NCBI GenBank assembly: GCA_025056155.1
Contig: JANWWL010000006.1
Coordinates: forward strand, 62,001-126,000
Length of the DNA stretch: 64,000 nt
Source: Sphingomonadaceae bacterium
GTDB taxonomy: Bacteria > Pseudomonadota > Alphaproteobacteria > Sphingomonadales > Sphingomonadaceae
Reading direction: 5' to 3'
The translations under genes and the position numbers were made by a program. The notes under the pieces were generated by a model. It made no database searches. It saw only the letters and a list, made by a program, of their open reading frames with translations, and was not told the DNA's origin. Shown piece after piece: positions 62,192 to 63,407 of this stretch (its first letter is position 1; every line of letters starts with the position of its first letter).

Positions 62192-62216
62192 GATCCCCCA
62201 TGCACCTTCGCTCTTG

Positions 62217-62276
62217 CTGCGATGCAGCAGCTCCGGCTTGACCACGCTGCGATGCAGCACGGATGCAGGCGCCTGC
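62217..62276. promoter_or_regulatory. Cluster of two CTGCGATGCAG (CTGC-N3-GCAG) sites and one GCAGGCGCCTGC palindrome
   Basis: CTGCGATGCAG at 62217-62227 and 62247-62257 (30 bp apart); GCAGGCGCCTGC at 62265-62276; ATG of the next gene at 62298. Confidence 0.5.
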
Positions 62277-62297
62277 CCATCGTCGAGGAGGCTCTCC

Positions 62298-62564
62298 ATG
62301 TTTCGCGCCTTCGCTTTCGCCGCCGCCCTGGTCGTTGCGGTTCCTGCCGTCGCCCAGGAGGCGGTCGATTCCGTCCGTCCGGGCCGCGTGCTGCGGGACA
62401 CGAACGGCCAGCGCCTGGGCAAGGTGGACCGAGTGAACCCCGATGGCTCGGTGCGGATCATCTTCGAGGAACGGTTCGTGACCATTCCCGCCGACAAGCT
62501 CGCGGTGGCGGACGGACAGGCCCGCACCACGCTCACCCGCCGCGAGGTGGCTCGCCTGCGCTGA
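62298..62564 (+). CDS. Small secreted protein, PRC-barrel-like core
   Basis: 88 aa; signal peptide MFRAFAFAAALVVAVPAVAQE; GRVLRDTNGQRLGKVDRVNPDGSVRIIFEERFVTIPADKLAV. Confidence 0.65.
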   Translation: MFRAFAFAAALVVAVPAVAQEAVDSVRPGRVLRDTNGQRLGKVDRVNPDGSVRIIFEERFVTIPADKLAVADGQARTTLTRREVARLR

Positions 62565-62603: not shown

Positions 62604-63407
62604 ATGCCCGCCGCCACCGTCGTCGTCACGCGCGAAGGGCCGGTCACCGTGGTGGAGATCGACCGGCCGTCGACCCGGAACGCGGTCGACGGGCCGACGG
62701 CGCGGGCCCTCTACGAGGCGTTCCAAGCCTTCGAGGCCGATCCGGCCGCGCGGGTCGCCGTGCTGGCGGGCCGAGGGGGCACCTTCTGCGCCGGGGCAGA
62801 CCTGAAGGCCGTCGGCACGGCGCAGGGCAATCCGCTCGAGCCCTTCGCACCCGATCGCATCGGCCCCATGGGCCCCACCCGGCTCAGCCTCTCCAAGCCC
62901 GTGATCGCCGCGATCGAGGGCCATGCCGTGGCGGGTGGCCTGGAACTCGCCCTGTGGTGCGACCTGCGCGTCGTGGCCGAGGATGCGGTGCTGGGCGTGT
63001 TCTGCCGGCGCTTCGGCGTGCCCCTCATCGACGGTGGAACGGTACGGCTGGCCCGCCTGGTGGGGGAATCGCGCGCGATGGACCTGGTGCTGACGGGCCG
63101 GCCGGTCCTGGCGGCGGAAGCCCTGGCGATCGGGCTCGCCAACCGGGTGGCGCCCAAGGGTCAGGCGGGTGCCGAAGCCCTTCGGCTGGCCCAAGAGCTC
63201 GCGCAGTTTCCGCAGGCCTGTCTTAAGGCCGATCGTGCGGCGCTGAAGGGGCAGTGGGGGTTGACCGAGGCCGAGGCGATGGCCCGCGAGTTCGCAGGCG
63301 GTCTTGCCGTGATCGCAACCGGCGAGACGGCCGAGGGAGCCCGCCGTTTCGCGGCAGGCCAAGGCCGCCACGGCGCCTTCCCCTCCGCCGGCCCGCCCCG
63401 GCCCTGA
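62604..63407 (+). CDS. Crotonase / enoyl-CoA hydratase family protein
   Basis: RPSTRNAVDGPTARAL, GTFCAGADLKAV, KPVIAAIEGHAVAGGLELALWCDLRVVAEDAVLGV. Confidence 0.92.
   Translation: MPAATVVVTREGPVTVVEIDRPSTRNAVDGPTARALYEAFQAFEADPAARVAVLAGRGGTFCAGADLKAVGTAQGNPLEPFAPDRIGPMGPTRLSLSKPVIAAIEGHAVAGGLELALWCDLRVVAEDAVLGVFCRRFGVPLIDGGTVRLARLVGESRAMDLVLTGRPVLAAEALAIGLANRVAPKGQAGAEALRLAQELAQFPQACLKADRAALKGQWGLTEAEAMAREFAGGLAVIATGETAEGARRFAAGQGRHGAFPSAGPPRP

Follow-up and report, generated by a model that had tools for sequence, protein, structure and literature searches.

A predicted PhaR double operator upstream of a small exported protein gene in a Sphingomonadaceae bacterium

Operators of the PHB-sensing repressor PhaR have been described in Bradyrhizobium diazoefficiens, where DNase I footprints gave the consensus TGCRNYGCASMA (PMC6201568), and in Sinorhizobium meliloti, where the core reads YGCRNYGCR (PMC12542648). 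Two PhaR sites flanking the -35 box are a documented layout of the phaP1 and phaP2 promoters (PMC6201568, PMC12542648), and in phaP1 of B. diazoefficiens a spacing of 6 bp separates each site from the -35 box, which would amount to an offset of 30 bp when the sites are read in the same direction (PMC6201568). A TGC-rich PhaR box is also described for Paracoccus denitrificans and Rhodobacter sphaeroides (Maehara, as cited in PMC10888616). Release of the promoter through sequestration of PhaR by PHB has been shown for phasin genes elsewhere, and the RNA MmgR is repressed by PhaR in S. meliloti. A search of the literature returned no study of PhaR operators in the Sphingomonadaceae.

The window analysed here is a stretch of 64,000 nucleotides from a Sphingomonadaceae bacterium (GCA_025056155.1, contig JANWWL010000006.1, positions 62,001 to 126,000). 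Near its end, the intergenic stretch between the end of an M16 peptidase gene (62191) and the gene for an 88-aa exported protein (62298-62564) carries two copies of CTGCGATGCAG, at 62217-62227 and 62247-62257, offset by exactly 30 bp and embedded in a shared 14-bp repeat, GCTGCGATGCAGCA (62216-62229 and 62246-62259). The proximal copy lies about 40 bp 5' of the small-protein gene. An earlier note on this DNA had reported the two copies, their exact offset, the palindrome GCAGGCGCCTGC and the ATG at 62298, and all of these were confirmed at those positions. The features of the locus are as follows.

62215-62229, no strand: distal predicted PhaR operator, the perfect palindrome TGCTGCGATGCAGCA (core TGCGATGCA at 62218-62226); 12/12 match to TGCRNYGCASMA, matrix (PWM) score 16.4, the highest in the 64 kb
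62238-62243, + strand: putative -35 box TTGACC between both operators, from the sequence and a similar operator-to-TTGAC gap at five homologues
62245-62259, no strand: proximal predicted PhaR operator CGCTGCGATGCAGCA (core TGCGATGCA at 62248-62256), in the predicted promoter spacer; 12/12 match to TGCRNYGCASMA, matrix score 11.7, second in the 64 kb
62265-62276, no strand: palindrome GCAGGCGCCTGC, not of PhaR type and probably incidental
62285-62291, + strand: Shine-Dalgarno-like GAGGAGG, by its sequence a good ribosome-binding site
62298-62564, + strand: predicted target gene, encoding an 88-aa exported protein of a Sphingomonadaceae-type hypothetical family with a suggested PRC-barrel-like fold (open reading frame, homologues, weak PRC matches and a structural model)
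62604-63407, + strand: gene of the crotonase/enoyl-CoA hydratase family (PRK08259-type) that may be co-transcribed (NCBIfam NF006108, 402 bits against a cut-off of 273)

The box TTGACC follows the distal operator after 11 nt. A promoter scanner run on the locus gave no consensus match to a -10 element, and with no recognisable -10 the promoter is one that we infer. The two sites had been proposed to be phased by about three helical turns; the 30-bp offset holds, and since it corresponds to 2.86 turns the sites would lie roughly, not exactly, on one face of the helix. The inclusion of GCAGGCGCCTGC as a third element of a multi-site operator did not survive the analysis, as this palindrome is devoid of the inward TGC...GCA half-site layout and thus does not fit the PhaR motif, and perfect 12-bp palindromes occur in the window at chance level (52 found against 63 expected).

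Both copies, which read TGCGATGCAGCA, match TGCRNYGCASMA at 12/12 positions, comprising the core TGCRNYGCA and the SMA flank, and also fit the S. meliloti core. The window's genome encodes a PhaR (PF07879, E 3.8e-30; TIGR01848 equivalog, 145.8 bits against a cut-off of 109.45) as well as a phasin, PhaZ and PhaC. A look for the motif at phaP, phaR and phaZ, suggested earlier, gave a mixed outcome in this genome: a TGCRNYGCA pair is present upstream of the phasin gene, no TGCRNYGCA site was found near the phaR start in the 3.2-kb phaR locus, and the PhaZ gene has no strict site in its locus. A single GTTGCAGTGCAGC site, a possible further PhaR target as judged from its letters, was also observed between a gene for a TonB-receptor-like protein and, divergent from it, one for a type I secretion-like ABC transporter (L210, G000:C3:55901-55913).

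For comparison with relatives, 41 phasin and phaZ loci, of which relatives supplied 39, were searched for TGCRNYGCA, and the 47 sites from genomes other than the window's gave a 21-bp PhaR matrix; because the sites were preselected, the collecting pattern fixes its core, and its independence lies mainly in the training loci and the flanks. With this matrix the two copies took ranks 1 and 2 of all positions in the 64 kb, the proximal site having G+C-rich flanks and a modest score. TGCRNYGCA sites were present before 19 of 22 phasin loci (one of the 19 being that of the window's own genome) and 9 of 19 phaZ loci, as compared with 3 of 41 control stretches, and the phasin promoter region of a congener (G002, L064) carries the identical 15-mer TGCTGCGATGCAGCA. 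Pairs of sites were observed directly 5' of phaZ-type depolymerase genes in three genomes (L045, L051 and L052 in G021, G020 and G008, respectively); at L045 and L052 the pair is located between the depolymerase gene and a divergent open frame. In another genome (G010, L202:1501-1667), a pair flanking TTGACT was found between two convergent genes, 5' of a structured RNA that folds strongly (z -5.4), has a terminator-like end and scores 29.8 of 41 bits against Rfam mmgR (E 3e-4), under the gathering score; by its sequence it is a candidate for a PhaR-controlled MmgR of sphingomonads. The phasin and phaZ sites of the relatives, the 15-mer shared with the congener and the pair before the mmgR-like RNA together tie the motif to PhaR.

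The 88-aa protein has a signal-peptide-like N-terminus and a mature part of about 65 residues. A Pfam search with the window's protein gave no family at E <= 0.1, the gathering score of PF05239 not being reached; weak PRC matches were obtained for 6 of 25 homologues (best E 2.3e-4). A single-sequence AlphaFold model (pLDDT 77) is built of six strands plus a C-terminal helix, and its best structural match is the PRC-barrel 3htr (probability 1.00, TM 0.55, E 3.7e-3). A profile search of solved structures returned one match only, at E 0.15. These sequence and model comparisons are suggestive only of a PRC-barrel-like protein. A survey of 301 genomes of the same family gave homologues in 73, and plasmid-borne ones are named in Sphingomonas, Sphingobium and Novosphingobium, a spread that would by itself place the source organism most likely in the Sphingomonadaceae.

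The predicted operator recurs at these homologues. A strict site lies within 250 bp upstream in 13 of 31 homologues (the window's own left out) as compared with 16 of 320 control chunks (P 4e-8), and in 8 of 15 when counted once per genus (P 1e-6); about half of the homologues are without a strict site. Matrix scores of at least 16 were found upstream of 14 of 29 homologues, in 8 genera, shuffles giving a mean of 0.53 and a maximum of 2. At five homologues (L085, L093, L095, L102 and L105), an operator or near-match is followed, after a gap of 9-11 nt, by TTGACA or TTGAAA. The homologue of the culturable Sphingomonas paeninsulae (L246) also has an operator. The small-protein gene was not found in genomes of the same genus, so the nearest available footprint is from other genera, none being provided by congeners.

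The earlier suggestion that the operator is linked to the small protein or to the flanking crotonase gene could be narrowed down to the former. Neither the crotonase nor the M16 gene of the window is present at any homologue locus, and as the operator recurs at homologues lacking either neighbour, it belongs to the small-protein gene, which is the primary target predicted from these sequence comparisons. The crotonase gene follows after a gap of 39 bp, in which no terminator was detected, and may at most be read through or co-transcribed; as a main target it is disfavoured by its absence from the homologue loci and by nearest listed relatives in unrelated taxa. Among the matches listed, from which close relatives may be missing, these relatives are from Streptomyces, Bradyrhizobium and others, none of them sphingomonad, which hints at horizontal acquisition. 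The M16 peptidase gene was likewise rejected as the relevant context, the congeners retaining it without the operator pair or the small gene downstream.

A chance repeat in G+C-rich DNA, devoid of function, would agree with the frequency of CTGCN3GCAG by itself, which is not enriched in the 64-kb window (3 found against 2.5 expected), and with the scans for TGCTGCN3GCAGCA, which are likewise near background, such loose patterns being common in the genome; the matter is thus not decidable by loose scans. The stricter pair is rare. Pattern searches of the 2.2-Mb genome gave only four occurrences of TGCRNYGCA-N5-35-TGCRNYGCA and none of the reversed-pattern control; the four lie before the phasin gene, before a UrcA-family gene (with a 30-bp offset), at the site in the window and inside a penicillin-binding-protein-like CDS. 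No pair of comparable matrix score arose in 3 Mb of simulated third-order Markov sequence, and together with the top two matrix ranks and the recurrence of the operator at homologous genes this makes a chance origin very improbable. The earlier attribution to PhaR is well supported, with TGCRNYGCA(SMA) as the working motif in place of any CTGC-N3/4-GCAG. An action of the repeats in RNA, the two identical palindromes pairing with each other in a transcript to form a leader hairpin or attenuator, is feasible as far as the pairing goes. However, the folding is no better than that of shuffles (z = -0.29), a search of the locus gave no Rfam family at its threshold, and a transcript from the predicted promoter would not contain the sites, since they lie on both sides of its -35 box; an RNA leader structure was rejected on these grounds and is given hardly any credence.

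A different regulator with a nearly identical TGCRNYGCA-type palindrome, for instance one serving UrcA-like small envelope proteins, with the phasin promoters merely similar, deserves somewhat more weight and is nevertheless unlikely. In its favour, a TGCRNYGCA pair, likewise offset by 30 bp, lies immediately 5' of the gene for a UrcA-family small secreted protein (TIGR04433) in this genome (G000:C6:248639-248677; L082:1501-1539), and a pair also precedes a gene of the UrcA family from a different genus (L203); no published link between UrcA and PhaR was found in the literature searched. Against it, the same matrix derives from phasin and phaZ promoters, a pair precedes the mmgR-like RNA whose S. 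meliloti counterpart is PhaR-repressed, and three genomes of family f2 that were checked contain no pairs, two of the three being without phasin and phaZ.

The two CTGCGATGCAG copies thus very probably serve PhaR as a double operator, one on each side of the -35 box in the small exported protein's promoter, a reading drawn from the sequence and its comparison with relatives. PhaR binding, repression and a response to PHB at the pair are what we infer for this locus, and the position of the sites points to repression as the sign of regulation; some genes are activated by PhaR (PMC6201568). At low PHB, free PhaR would occupy both palindromes, one just 5' of the -35 box and the other in the spacer between the -35 and -10 elements, and would thereby block RNA polymerase. 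On formation of PHB granules, PhaR would be sequestered and the promoter released, such that the small protein would be co-expressed with the phasin, possibly along with the crotonase. A periplasmic role of the small protein tied to the PHB-accumulating state may be envisaged.

The operator pair is accordingly put forward as a predicted new target of a known regulator, by which a conserved, uncharacterised exported protein family joins the predicted PhaR regulon. In a wider reading, which we favour by a small margin only, PhaR of Sphingomonadaceae-like bacteria may control phasin, depolymerase and recurrent small exported proteins (PRC-barrel-like and some of the UrcA family), thereby relaying PHB status to the envelope or periplasm. 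The predicted co-expression with PHB granules provides a functional handle for a hypothetical protein, and the operator map is ready for use in culturable sphingomonads.

Compared with known systems, the small protein may resemble PRC-barrel proteins (PF05239; 3htr) in its predicted short beta-barrel, its best structural match and the weak matches of some homologues, and differs from PF05239 in staying under any Pfam cut-off and in its signal-peptide-like N-terminus. The predicted operators share repeated TGC palindromes with the PhaR box of P. denitrificans and R. sphaeroides, as far as the cited account describes it. With the PhaR/AniA operators of phaP1 and phaP2 in S. meliloti (PMC12542648) they have in common the core YGCRNYGCR and the pair flanking the -35 box, whereas in S. 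meliloti the arms of the sites are rich in A+T and the offsets are 18 and 28 bp, the arms here being G+C-rich. The consensus TGCRNYGCASMA of the phaP1 and phaP4 operators of B. diazoefficiens (PMC6201568) is matched exactly by both copies here, and the layout with a copy on each side of the -35 box and a 30-bp offset when read in one direction is shared; the target there is a phasin, whereas the operator predicted here is that of an uncharacterised exported protein.
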